Source: Verrucomicrobiota bacterium
GTDB lineage: Bacteria > Verrucomicrobiota > Verrucomicrobiia > JAWXBN01
Assembly (NCBI GenBank): GCA_034440155.1
Contig: JAWXBN010000062.1
Span: forward strand, 1 to 47,329
Length of the DNA: 47,329 nucleotides
Direction of reading: 5' to 3'
In this document: positions 17,768 through 21,868 of the stretch, in pieces
Position numbering within the stretch: the first letter of the stretch is position 1
Layout: each line of letters begins with the position of its first letter
Program-made: the position numbers and the translations under genes
Notes under the pieces: model-generated
The model's input: only the letters and a program-made list of their open reading frames with translations
Database searches by the model: none
What the model was told of the DNA's origin: nothing

Positions 17768-18460
17768 ATGTATTCAGTTGATTTAAATTTTGATAATGAG
17801 GAAACAGCACGAGTTTTTCGGATTACCGCCGAGTTTGTTGTGGCCTTCCAAAAAATGTCCCAGATCGGATCGGCCGTAAGTTTTTTCGGATCCGCGAGGA
17901 CAAAACCGACAAATATTTATTATAAACAGGCCGTTGAACTTTCCTACAAATTCGCCTGGAACCATATCGCTGTAGTGACCGGTGGGGGGCCGGGAATCAT
18001 GGAGGCTGCCAACCGTGGGGCGGCAAATGCCAAAGGTATCTCCGTGGGATTGAATATTGAGTTACCCCATGAGCAATCTTCAAATTCTTATATTAATTTC
18101 CCGGTGAATTTCCATTATTTTTTCGTCAGGAAAATCTGTTTTGTGAAATATTCCATGGCTTTTGTGATCTTTCCGGGAGGATTCGGAACCATGGATGAGG
18201 CCTTTGAGCTTTTAACTCTTGTCCAAACAAAAAGGGTAGGACGGCGTCCGATTGTTTTATTTGGTACAAAATATTGGGGTGGTTTAGTCAAATGGATCAA
18301 AGGCCAGCTTCTTAAGGATAAATATATCACTCCAGGGGACGAGAATTTATTTGTCGTCACCGATTCTGTGGATAAAGCCTTCAAAGCGGTGATGGATTAT
18401 CACTGTGACCTTAATGGTTGCGCGAAAATTAATGATGATGTTCAAGATATTAAGCTTTAA
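17768..18460 (+). CDS. LOG family protein (putative nucleoside 5'-monophosphate phosphoribohydrolase)
   Basis: 230 residues with the LOG fold once annotated as lysine decarboxylase. The signatures are VTGGGPGIMEAANRGA and FPGGFGTMDEAFELLTLVQ, the PGGxGTxxE motif that binds the substrate phosphate and holds the catalytic Glu. Characterised members release the base from cytokinin ribotides or from AMP; the substrate in a bacterium like this one is unknown. Its 3' end overlaps the start of the M16 peptidase gene. Confidence 0.88.
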   Translation: MYSVDLNFDNEETARVFRITAEFVVAFQKMSQIGSAVSFFGSARTKPTNIYYKQAVELSYKFAWNHIAVVTGGGPGIMEAANRGAANAKGISVGLNIELPHEQSSNSYINFPVNFHYFFVRKICFVKYSMAFVIFPGGFGTMDEAFELLTLVQTKRVGRRPIVLFGTKYWGGLVKWIKGQLLKDKYITPGDENLFVVTDSVDKAFKAVMDYHCDLNGCAKINDDVQDIKL

Positions 18461-19706
18461 AGGGGGCGGCACCCTCATTCTCAGGGAAATGCCCCACATG
18501 GAAACTGTCTCCATGGGTATATGGGCTGGAGTAGGTTCCCGCCATGAAACAAAAGGACAGGAAGGCATATCCCACTTTCTTGAGCACATGATTTTTAAGG
18601 GGACAAAAAAACGTTCATCCCACCAGATTTCCCAAGAAGTGGAAGGAATAGGGGGATACCTGAATGCTTTCACCACCGAAGAAAATACATGTTATTATGC
18701 ACGCGTCACGGGAGACCACTTTTCCCGTGTGGCAGATGTCCTCACGGATATGTACCAGTCGTCGGTATTTTCCCCTGAAGAGATTAAAAAGGAGAGGGGG
18801 GTTATTCTTGAAGAGTTATCCATGATCCAAGATCAACCTTCACAAAAAGTGCAAGAGATCCTCCAAGCCCTCCTCTGGCCTGCACATCCCCTCGGTAGTC
18901 CGATTGCGGGCACGGTTAAATCTGTCAAATCACTGAAACGCCGGGATTTAATCGGGTATTTCCATTCACGTTATAACCGCAACAACACGGTCGTCTCCCT
19001 TGCCGGAAAATTTAATGTCGATGAGGCTCAAAGCCTTTTTGGTGATTTTTTTAAAAAATTGCCAGCGGGACAAAAAGCCGGTTTTAAAAAATTTCCAAAT
19101 AAGAATTATCCTCCTGCTTTCCTCTATGAAGAAAAGGAGATTGAACAGGTGAATGCCGTCTTGGGTTTCAGGGGATTGTCCCGCTCTCATCCGATGCGGT
19201 ATGCCGCAAAGTTATTAAATGTTATCCTTGGGGAAAATATGAGTTCCAGGCTTTTCCAAGTGATCCGGGAGCAACACGGACTGGCTTATTCGATCGGGAG
19301 TGGCCAAAGCCTTTTTTCTGATACCGGGGCTCTGACTATTTTTGGTGGTCTTCCCTTTGACAAATATGCGAGGGCTTTAGCTTTGATTGGGCGTGAGCTT
19401 CATAGGATTAAGACGAAAAAAGTGATGTTAAAAGAGTTAAACCAAGCCAAGGATTATACCATCGGCATGATGAGCATGGGATTAGAAAGCACCACCGACC
19501 AGATGATTTGGGGGGGGGAATCATATTTAGCCTATGGTCGTGTCCAGGAATGTCCGGCAATCAAGAAGAAGCTTGAAGAAGTTTCCATCAGCGACATCCA
19601 GGAAGTCGCAAATTTACTTTTCACACCAAAGCAATGTGCTTTAGCTGTTATCGGGCCGAAATCTGCTGATAAACCGACCCTTCACAAGATTATTGATTTG
19701 AATTAA
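18432..19706 (+). CDS. M16 family zinc metallopeptidase
   Basis: A processing-peptidase-like (pitrilysin family) protein of about 425 residues. The inverted zinc motif HxxEH is present as ISHFLEHMIFKGT with the third ligand expected in FTTEENTCYYARV. The second half contains GENMSSRLFQVIREQHGLAYS, the Arg/Tyr-containing substrate-closing segment of M16B enzymes. The frame is open further up (18405), but ATGs at 18432, 18435 and 18438 are better starts; the conserved part begins with MFKILSFKGGG. All overlap the end of the LOG gene by 23-29 bases. No signal peptide is seen, so it is probably cytoplasmic. Confidence 0.9.
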   Translation: MMMFKILSFKGGGTLILREMPHMETVSMGIWAGVGSRHETKGQEGISHFLEHMIFKGTKKRSSHQISQEVEGIGGYLNAFTTEENTCYYARVTGDHFSRVADVLTDMYQSSVFSPEEIKKERGVILEELSMIQDQPSQKVQEILQALLWPAHPLGSPIAGTVKSVKSLKRRDLIGYFHSRYNRNNTVVSLAGKFNVDEAQSLFGDFFKKLPAGQKAGFKKFPNKNYPPAFLYEEKEIEQVNAVLGFRGLSRSHPMRYAAKLLNVILGENMSSRLFQVIREQHGLAYSIGSGQSLFSDTGALTIFGGLPFDKYARALALIGRELHRIKTKKVMLKELNQAKDYTIGMMSMGLESTTDQMIWGGESYLAYGRVQECPAIKKKLEEVSISDIQEVANLLFTPKQCALAVIGPKSADKPTLHKIIDLN

Positions 19707-19760: not shown

Positions 19761-20525
19761 ATGAAAAAAAACTTTTTTTTATTCACCATTATTCTTTTCT
19801 TACTCGCTCCCTATATAAAAGCCGAGGATGCCCCAGTACCACCGCCTGCGAAGATTGTGAAAATAAAATGGTACGGCCAATCCTTTGTCACATTGATTTC
19901 ATCCGTCGGGATTCGTATTGCGATCGACCCCTTTGACAACAAGACAAACCGTTATCCTTTACCCGTAAATATCCCCATGGACATCGTACTCGTCAGTAAT
20001 GAGGACGATGATCATAATAATACTGATTTCATCGCCGGAAATCCTATTATTTTCAGAAGCTCCACGGGTGAGGGGACAAACCGTGGTAATGGGATTATTT
20101 TTAAAGGTACTCCAGGAATTAAAGACGAGACATCCACTGCCCAAATCGGTAATAAAAGCATGATTTATACATTTTCACTCGACGGGGTGAAGTTCTGCCA
20201 TCTGGGTAATCTAGGGCAAAAGAGTCTGAAGGAAAAACAGCTTCAACAAATCGGTGCAGTGGATGTATTGATCCTCCCCATCGGGGATTCAGACCGGGAG
20301 GAATTATTAGCCCAGATCAAACCGAAAATCGTCATCCCGATTCATTACAAAACCCCCTTAACTGTCGTGCCCTTGTACTCGGTAGAAGATTTTGTCAAAA
20401 ATAAGCCTGTAAAAAGATTCCCGACAAATGAAATATCCATTTCTAAAAATGATTTCCCCCCCCAGATGGAAGTCTGGTTGTATGCAAATCCCCCTGAGAA
20501 AATTCCAGAACTGATTCAACCCTGA
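19761..20525 (+). CDS. Secreted metallo-beta-lactamase-fold protein with altered metal ligands
   Basis: About 254 residues from the ATG at 19761. A signal peptide (MKKNFFLFTIILFLLAPYIKA) is followed by a UlaG-like MBL fold: IKWYGQSFVTLIS, IAIDPFD, DIVLVSNEDDDHNNTDF, FCHLGNLG, DVLILPIGD and KIVIPIHYKTP. In active relatives the third segment reads SHxHxDH. Here the two first His are Asn and Asp (NEDDDH), and the later His-x-Gly-Asp is HLGN. Only part of the zinc site therefore survives, and hydrolase activity is doubtful; a binding role or a different metal is possible. Upstream in-frame ATGs (19743 and a near-cognate at 19725) would bury the signal peptide. The gene converges with rarA and overlaps it by 10 bp. 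Confidence 0.75.
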   Translation: MKKNFFLFTIILFLLAPYIKAEDAPVPPPAKIVKIKWYGQSFVTLISSVGIRIAIDPFDNKTNRYPLPVNIPMDIVLVSNEDDDHNNTDFIAGNPIIFRSSTGEGTNRGNGIIFKGTPGIKDETSTAQIGNKSMIYTFSLDGVKFCHLGNLGQKSLKEKQLQQIGAVDVLILPIGDSDREELLAQIKPKIVIPIHYKTPLTVVPLYSVEDFVKNKPVKRFPTNEISISKNDFPPQMEVWLYANPPEKIPELIQP

Positions 20526-21868
20526 TTTTTTTTAAGGGCTTCAATTCGCCTTTGTTTGAAGACATCAAGGCGTTCTTGGATCTTTTTTTCAAACCCGAGT
20601 CCGCTGGGCTTATAGAAGCTTTTTGATTCACGCATGTAATCTTGTGGAGCATATCCGTCTTGGTAGTCATGGGCGTATTTGTACCCCTTACCGTGTCCGA
20701 GTTTTTCAGCACCGGAATAATGACCATCCTTGAGGTGATCAGGGACTTCTTGGATTTTCTCCTTCCGCACTACGGATAAGGCCTCATCAATCGAAGTGAT
20801 GGAGGAATTACTCTTTGGAGCTGTGGATATATAAATGACCGCTTCTGCCAGGGGAATCCGTGCCTCGGGCATTCCGACAAACTCAGTAATTTGCTGGGCT
20901 GCCGAAGCGATAAGGAGTGCTTGGGGGTCAGCCATACCGACATCTTCGGCAGCACAAATCACGATCCTCCGGGCGATAAACCGGATGTCTTCACCAGCCT
21001 CCAGCATTTTTGCGAGCCAATAAAGTGCCGCATCGGGGTCGCTGCCACGCATGCTCTTAATAAATGCCGAGATGGTATCATAGTGTTGATCACCGTCCCG
21101 GTCATAAACAGGGGATTTCCGCTGGATGGAATCTTCAAAAATGATTTGGTTGAGGACGATTTCCCCTGATGACGCAGGCTCGGTCGTACGCGCGGCAATC
21201 TCCAGAGAGTTTAATGCCTTTCGGGCATCTCCCTCACACAGGCGGGCCAGATACCGGAGGTCCTCTTCAGTTACCATTACCGGGAGGTTTTTTAATCCAC
21301 GTTCATCCATTAAAGCCTTTTGCATGGCCACGAGCAGATCGTCTTCCGTCAGCGATTTAAGTTCAAAAACAAGGGAACGTGAGACTAACGGGGCATTAAC
21401 GGCGAAATAGGGGTTCAGGGTGGTCGCCCCGATTAATCGAATGACCCCGCGCTCGACCTCAGGCAAAAGGAGATCCTGTTGAGCTTTATTAAAACGGTGG
21501 ATCTCGTCGATAAAGACGATGGTCTGTTGTCCCGAGGTTTGTAGGCGGTTAAGTGCGACACTGAGTATCTTCCTGACTTCCGCTGTTCCAGCCTCGACCG
21601 CATTGATCGACTCAAATTTTGATTTGGTCGTGGAAGCAATGACATGGGCCAAGGATGTTTTGCCCGTACCCGGAGGCCCGAAAATAATTACGGAATTTAT
21701 ACGGTCAGCCTGGATCGAGCGCCGGAGTAACTTGCCCGGGCCCACAATGTGGGATTGGCCAATATATTCGTCCAATGAACGCGGCCTCATCCTTGTCGCC
21801 AGGGGTGCGGCCCCGTTCATGGGATCATGGGCAGGAGTATCCTTGGACTGGAAGAGTTCCTCGCTCAT
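20516..21868 (-). CDS. rarA: Replication-associated recombination ATPase RarA/MgsA
   Basis: An AAA+ clamp-loader-like ATPase acting at stalled replication forks. The 450 residues include LDEYIGQSHIVGPGKLLRR, Walker A FGPPGTGKTSLAHVIA, Walker B IVFIDEIHRFNKAQQDLLLP, sensor 1 IGATTLNPYFAVN, and the family-specific C-terminal segment EDVGMADPQALLIA with GHGKGYKYAHDYQDGY. The length is normal. Confidence 0.95.
   Translation of the reverse strand: MSEELFQSKDTPAHDPMNGAAPLATRMRPRSLDEYIGQSHIVGPGKLLRRSIQADRINSVIIFGPPGTGKTSLAHVIASTTKSKFESINAVEAGTAEVRKILSVALNRLQTSGQQTIVFIDEIHRFNKAQQDLLLPEVERGVIRLIGATTLNPYFAVNAPLVSRSLVFELKSLTEDDLLVAMQKALMDERGLKNLPVMVTEEDLRYLARLCEGDARKALNSLEIAARTTEPASSGEIVLNQIIFEDSIQRKSPVYDRDGDQHYDTISAFIKSMRGSDPDAALYWLAKMLEAGEDIRFIARRIVICAAEDVGMADPQALLIASAAQQITEFVGMPEARIPLAEAVIYISTAPKSNSSITSIDEALSVVRKEKIQEVPDHLKDGHYSGAEKLGHGKGYKYAHDYQDGYAPQDYMRESKSFYKPSGLGFEKKIQERLDVFKQRRIEALKKNQG

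Follow-up and report, generated by a model that had tools for sequence, protein, structure and literature searches.

An apparently exported metallo-β-lactamase-fold protein with a dismantled metal site and its widespread relatives in a bacterial class

To our knowledge, metallo-β-lactamase (MBL) folds that lack their metal are found mainly in eukaryotic RNA-processing complexes (INTS9 and CPSF100). According to PMC7980224, both proteins have an MBL fold without the HxHxDH motif and serve non-catalytically beside an active partner, INTS9 having kept its function with NYHC in place of the motif. A different departure is presented in PMC5018959: the class B2 metallo-β-lactamase CphA, which has Asn for the first metal His, functions with one zinc, and the B2 enzymes keep His118 and His196, both of which are implicated in the mechanism. 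Among the solved proteins of this fold, TM0207 of Thermotoga maritima (PDB entry 1VJN) keeps SHQHFDHN, HD, HLGD and MHYKT; UlaG, an L-ascorbate-6-phosphate lactonase, and UPF0173/PRK00685 belong to the same superfamily. None of the open-access papers returned by our literature searches describes the degenerate MBL family reported here in its title or abstract opening. A Pfam match would label its members as metal-dependent hydrolases, though the metal-holding residues are gone, and a bacterial, exported and operon-linked family would be a simple place to ask what a metal-less MBL fold does.

The gene from which this analysis started (positions 19761–20525, plus strand) lies in contig JAWXBN010000062.1 of a Verrucomicrobiota bacterium (assembly GCA_034440155.1), a stretch of 47,329 nucleotides that is called the window below. 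Its reading frame, together with profile and fold searches, identifies the product (the window protein, 254 amino acids) as an apparently exported MBL-fold protein (PF13483) with a dismantled metal site. The frame contains no internal stops, and alternative in-frame starts occur 5′ of 19761, at ATG 19743 and TTG 19725. Residues 1–21 (MKKNFFLFTIILFLLAPYIKA; 19761–19823, plus strand), which are followed by ED, look like a Sec signal on inspection, and the window protein passes a simple hydrophobicity test for export; sequence and test together point to a probable Sec signal peptide. An initial annotation of this DNA had considered the gene to be intact, with a signal peptide, and not a case of simple decay, and the open frame and the signal-like N-terminus of an apparently exported protein agree with it. 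On the 5′ side, a gene for an M16 peptidase (18405–19706, plus strand), in which HFLEH is visible, is separated by 54 nt from the window gene's ATG (19761). On the 3′ side, a convergent gene for an AAA ATPase (20516–21868, minus strand), which we take from its sequence to be RarA-like, overlaps the 3′ end of the window gene by 10 nt. Neither M16 nor RarA was matched beside the MBL genes of the relatives in the neighbourhoods searched. Promoter-like sites occurred at chance level, terminator-like sites showed little excess (3, against a mean of 1.5 by chance), and a scan for repeats returned short or imperfect repeats and nothing else.

The MBL fold, which the initial annotation had regarded as retained and as UlaG-like, is indeed retained. 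PF13483 (Lactamase_B_3) matched the window protein with 92.8 bits and E 2.9e-26, above its curated cut-off of 24 bits, and was the sole Pfam family above its cut-off in this protein. An AlphaFold2 model built from five sequences (mean pLDDT 74.9, pTM 0.77), with low confidence in residues 1–20, 122–130 and 244–254, had TM0207 (1VJN) as its best PDB match (Foldseek E 7.7e-16), and the superposition on 1VJN aligned 187 residues with Z 23.0, rmsd 2.2 and 32% identity. The Pfam E-value and this Z score rule out chance as the source of the similarity in fold. A 14-row profile (A1), headed by the window protein itself, also ranked 1VJN first (E 7.9e-47), and the window protein has the same motif blocks as TM0207 in the same order, so that the two correspond both in fold and in collinear sequence. 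The UlaG-like label fared less well. The entries 3X2Z, 7E3V/7E3W and 2WYL, the last of which we take to be UlaG, came below TM0207 in the fold search, and NCBIfam PRK00685 scored 36 bits against a cut-off of 144, which places the window protein outside the UPF0173/PRK00685 equivalog. The catalytic metal motif of UlaG is absent from the window protein, and UlaG was rejected as the nearest relation since TM0207 is closer by both sequence profile and fold. Whereas INTS9 and CPSF100 combine the MBL domain with a β-CASP domain and are paired with an active paralogue, the window protein is a single exported MBL domain of 254 residues, with PF13483 only and no β-CASP domain.

The metal ligands of the window protein were assigned by alignment. 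In place of SHxHxDH it reads SNEDDDH (residues 79–85, within LVSNEDDDHNN; 19995–20015, plus strand), where N80 and D82 replace the first and second His of site 1, D84 and H85 of site 2 are kept, and E81 is conserved in the family. The third site-1 His, which stands in HDE in canonical relatives, is Lys121 (20121–20123, plus strand). The bridging metal Asp is replaced by Asn150 in HLGNLG (residues 147–152, within FCHLGNLGQ; 20199–20216, plus strand), and the last metal His, H195, is kept in IPIHYKT (residues 192–198, within VIPIHYKTP; 20334–20354, plus strand). The ligand set H,H,D,H,H,D,H has become N80,D82,D84,H85,K121,N150,H195, with three of the seven kept and four lost, and the full active set of PF13483 (HxHxDH, third His, bridging Asp and last His) is no longer there. 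The SNEDDDH reading, the Asn in HLGN and the final His in IPIHYKTP had all been recognised in the initial annotation and stand as described; what its ligand list had overlooked is the change of the third His to Lys121. By the usual MBL numbering, D84, H85 and H195 correspond to the terminal ligands of metal site 2. As judged from the aligned sequence, the window protein thus lacks the whole of site 1, has Asn for the bridging Asp, and keeps only these site-2 residues. TM0207 keeps its blocks, and the absence of site 1 and of the bridging Asp from the window protein argues against a metal dependence of the TM0207 type. Four further ORFs with PF13483 matches in this genome (L156–L159, of which L159 falls below the Pfam cut-off) served as a control, and all have HxHxDH.

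Searched against its own genome, the window protein matched only itself, and that genome is the single representative of its order among the genomes analysed. Within the class, 37 of 141 genomes matched the window protein and 68 of 384 matched a profile at E <= 1e-10, the own genome being counted in both searches. A sample of 387 genomes of the phylum, which takes in many of the same class, gave matches in 13, of which 11, the own genome counted, were of the class; the two outside it were weak and keep HxHxDH. A search of plasmids returned weak, partial matches, two with a canonical relative as query and two with the window protein. We aligned 75 rows, namely the window protein, seven canonical relatives with one family code (f4), nine outer rows and 58 degenerate rows, in which the metal site is lost and which are spread over 15 family codes within the class. 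The domain limits of L011 and L021 were set by hand, and the degenerate rows L086, L096 and L109 are fragments.

All seven ligands are present in the f4 rows, and the outer rows keep the motif wholly or largely. In the degenerate rows, both His of HxH were kept in none of the 57 that were readable there, the third His in none of the 58, and the last His again in none of 57 readable rows; 16 rows retain no ligand, 18 retain one, 20 two and four three. Residues at all three positions of the site-2 triad could be read in 56 degenerate rows, and not one of these has D-H-H. At the position of the third His, 43 of the 58 rows have Lys or Arg. An acidic residue at the D3 position accompanies this basic residue in 36 of 42 rows, versus 5 of 15 rows without Lys or Arg (Fisher p 2.9e-4, with rows counted as independent despite their relatedness). 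At most ligand positions the replacements differ between relatives, and the feature that they share is the loss of the site. The initial annotation had raised the question of whether NEDDDH defines a clade. This exact string occurs in the window protein only, among the 75 aligned rows, and a clade drawn by it was rejected on that single occurrence. Partial loss of the motif was also seen outside the class, in a homologue from a deltaproteobacterial MAG (L034) that reads REHPNH; its ligands are R,H,N,H,Q,D,H, with three lost, though it is counted in the canonical group.

Selection was estimated on pairs of relatives rather than on the window gene: dN/dS was 0.022–0.292 in close pairs of degenerate rows (12 of 14 pairs computable, two saturated) and 0.122 and 0.179 in two canonical pairs. 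Compared with the rest of the alignment, the ligand columns were more variable in 55 degenerate rows (p 0.012) and less variable in the 16 canonical-group rows (p 7e-5), in which these columns come close to invariance in six cases out of seven, the third-His column having His in 10 of 16. Among the 38 main degenerate rows, several non-ligand residues are near-invariant: E81 (36 rows), R99 (37), G105 (38), N107 (33), D141 (38) and D168 (38). By this conservation, the segment from R99 to G109 (20055–20087, plus strand) is a conserved R-S plus G-x-N element. N107 is common to most degenerate relatives and differs from the canonical f4 relatives; E81, R99, G105, D141 and D168 are conserved in the f4 rows too, and these five may therefore be kept for the sake of the fold, not for a new role in binding. 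The branch leading to the window protein is fairly long, with 0.74–0.82 changes per column, and each missense change should on average be accompanied by about 0.052 stops, so that its frame, if unselected, would be expected to hold several stops. Since 58 of the 75 rows are degenerate and their close pairs have dN/dS of 0.02–0.29, these data indicate that loss of the metal site is not a decay private to the window gene. An MBL fold, the loss of most ligands and selection, the last as measured on relatives, are features that the window protein has in common with INTS9 and CPSF100.

The gene order of the degenerate relatives is distinctive. In 53 of the 57 readable degenerate rows, purD lies 400 nt or less downstream, and in 29 of those 53 the two genes overlap by 4 nt. 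Of the four rows without purD in this range, one has it at 429 nt. Downstream purD was absent from the other three, from the window, from all seven f4 rows (0 of 7 within 400 nt) and from the eight readable outer rows, with about 0.9–9 kb covered. In the window genome, purD is on another contig (C56), and the window gene is not directly upstream of it; because the window gene stands outside the purD cluster, the gene-order argument applies to the relatives.

A second protein recurs in this neighbourhood. An S41-peptidase-like protein follows purD in 14 of the 19 distinct purD-adjacent neighbourhoods that were read at length. At the position that we take, by comparison with tail-specific proteases, to be that of the catalytic Ser, Gly was found in 15 of 15 distinct sequences, the window genome's own among them. 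Further S41-like sequences had Gly there in 17 of 18, the eighteenth having Asn, and three ordinary S41 proteins had Ser. The S41-like protein also stands beside purD in genomes that yielded no MBL relative, such as L137–L141, and six f7 genomes that do have the MBL–purD pair (G006, G013, G022, G031, G049 and G056) gave no S41-like match at E <= 1e-25. Because each occurs without the other, the two proteins are not obligate partners. The window genome has both an S41-like gene and purD, unlinked: the S41-like gene is on a separate contig, beside genes that are presumably argB-like and argD-like, and the MBL, S41-like and purD genes are distributed over three contigs. Since the MBL family is so often linked to another degenerate enzyme near purD, its function could be probed by deletion and pull-down; the single window gene is of less interest than the family as it occurs, with its gene order, throughout the class. 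Exported S41-like proteins, usually beside purD, are exemplified by L071:10513-11706 and L135:1141-2325. In the former neighbourhood, Pfam searches also identified an ORF of about 724 amino acids (L071:11757-13931) that fuses a low-molecular-weight tyrosine phosphatase, RpiB and serine hydroxymethyltransferase and is matched in L075, L076, L079, L081 and L082.

The window gene is best explained, we think probably correctly, as encoding an exported MBL-fold pseudoenzyme that acts by binding. A non-catalytic binding protein had been named as a possibility in the initial annotation, and it is the function that we now infer. With four of seven ligands gone, the window protein would no longer hydrolyse anything. 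Lys121, at a position occupied by Lys or Arg in most relatives, would take the place of the site-1 metal and, by pairing with Asp84, neutralise this remaining acidic residue. The conserved non-ligand residues, among them E81, R99 and N107, which are assumed to be placed around the old pocket, would serve in the cell envelope to bind either a ligand or a partner. Because most relatives are joined to purD, often then followed by an exported S41-like protein, the usual role of the purD-joined family is probably within an envelope module, of which the S41-like Gly-for-Ser pseudoenzyme would sometimes be part. A broader proposal, tentative and rather doubtful in its entirety, is a class-wide envelope system in which two exported pseudoenzymes (the metal-less MBL protein and the S41-like protein with Ser changed to Gly) are connected with PurD through gene overlap, several families adding the phosphatase–RpiB–GlyA fusion, and would sense or carry a metabolite of glycine, one-carbon or purine supply; in the window genome this system would be dispersed.

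A binding pseudoenzyme is compatible with another account of its origin, to which we assign somewhat less than an even chance: the window protein may derive from a canonical f4-like lineage and have lost its site independently of the purD-linked family. Its seven best pairwise matches are canonical f4 proteins (38–44% identity), it has IDPFDN, GQS and DHNN in common with several of them, and its gene, like theirs, is away from purD; N107 and the basic residue at the third-His position are, however, common to the window protein and most degenerate relatives. We computed two trees with the ligand columns removed. A quick one used 71 rows, leaving out a distant row and three fragments; for a careful one we also set aside near-copies and very long rows, 15 rows in all, which left 60. 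In both, with weak support, the canonical f4 rows fell between sets of degenerate rows. The best careful tree, which requires two changes of the degenerate label, grouped the window protein with the main degenerate set, also weakly (support 83/13), and to that extent speaks against an independent loss. The AU test did not reject a grouping of the window protein with the f4 rows (p 0.505), nor did it reject the union of all degenerate rows, as expected from a single origin of the metal-site loss, either with the window protein (p-AU 0.248) or without it (p-AU 0.249). At the 24 columns that distinguish the f4 rows from the main degenerate rows, the window protein agrees with the degenerate rows at 9, with f4 at 8 and with neither at 7.

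Because D84, H85 and H195 are kept, the window protein may still hold one metal. A single-metal variant, in which site 1 is lost and one metal sits at site 2 through these three residues, with D82 or N150 perhaps assisting, might hydrolyse a substrate slowly or in some specialised way; we regard it as unlikely. What is retained coincides with the set of terminal site-2 ligands, a triad that would be the one left, with three of seven kept, in 1/35 of cases by chance, a calculation made post hoc. The last His, however, is found in none of the readable degenerate relatives, and the bridging Asp is Asn. The likeness to CphA, as PMC5018959 presents the B2 enzymes, extends to the Asn for the first His but not to the full set of Asn116, His118 and His196, the latter two positions being D82 and K121 here. 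The metal may instead be held through Asp residues, as the initial annotation had suggested, but the D-H-H set that such a metal would most easily use is absent from the readable degenerate relatives. That the gene is a pseudogene or is decaying, as the lost ligands and the fairly long branch might suggest, is very improbable and was rejected on the open frame and the dN/dS of the relatives, given an intact ORF with a signal-like N-terminus, a conserved fold and widespread site-less relatives under purifying selection.

With regard to export of the pseudoenzyme's relatives, the hydrophobicity test was applicable to 68 of the 75 rows and was passed by 51 of them, with all seven f4 rows falling just below. 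Most rows of f18 and f29 have a lipobox-like pattern. The N-termini of the degenerate relatives mostly look like those of the Sec or lipoprotein type, whereas some canonical f4 proteins have N-termini that look Tat-like by eye, with twin arginines in four of the seven (L002, L005, L006 and L008). As for the genomes that carry these relatives, PF02461 (pmoA-type) genes were present in all three f7 genomes tested, which are among the six with the MBL–purD pair named above, and in none of six others tested, including the window genome, a distribution that would fit an assignment of the f7 genomes to Methylacidiphilaceae.
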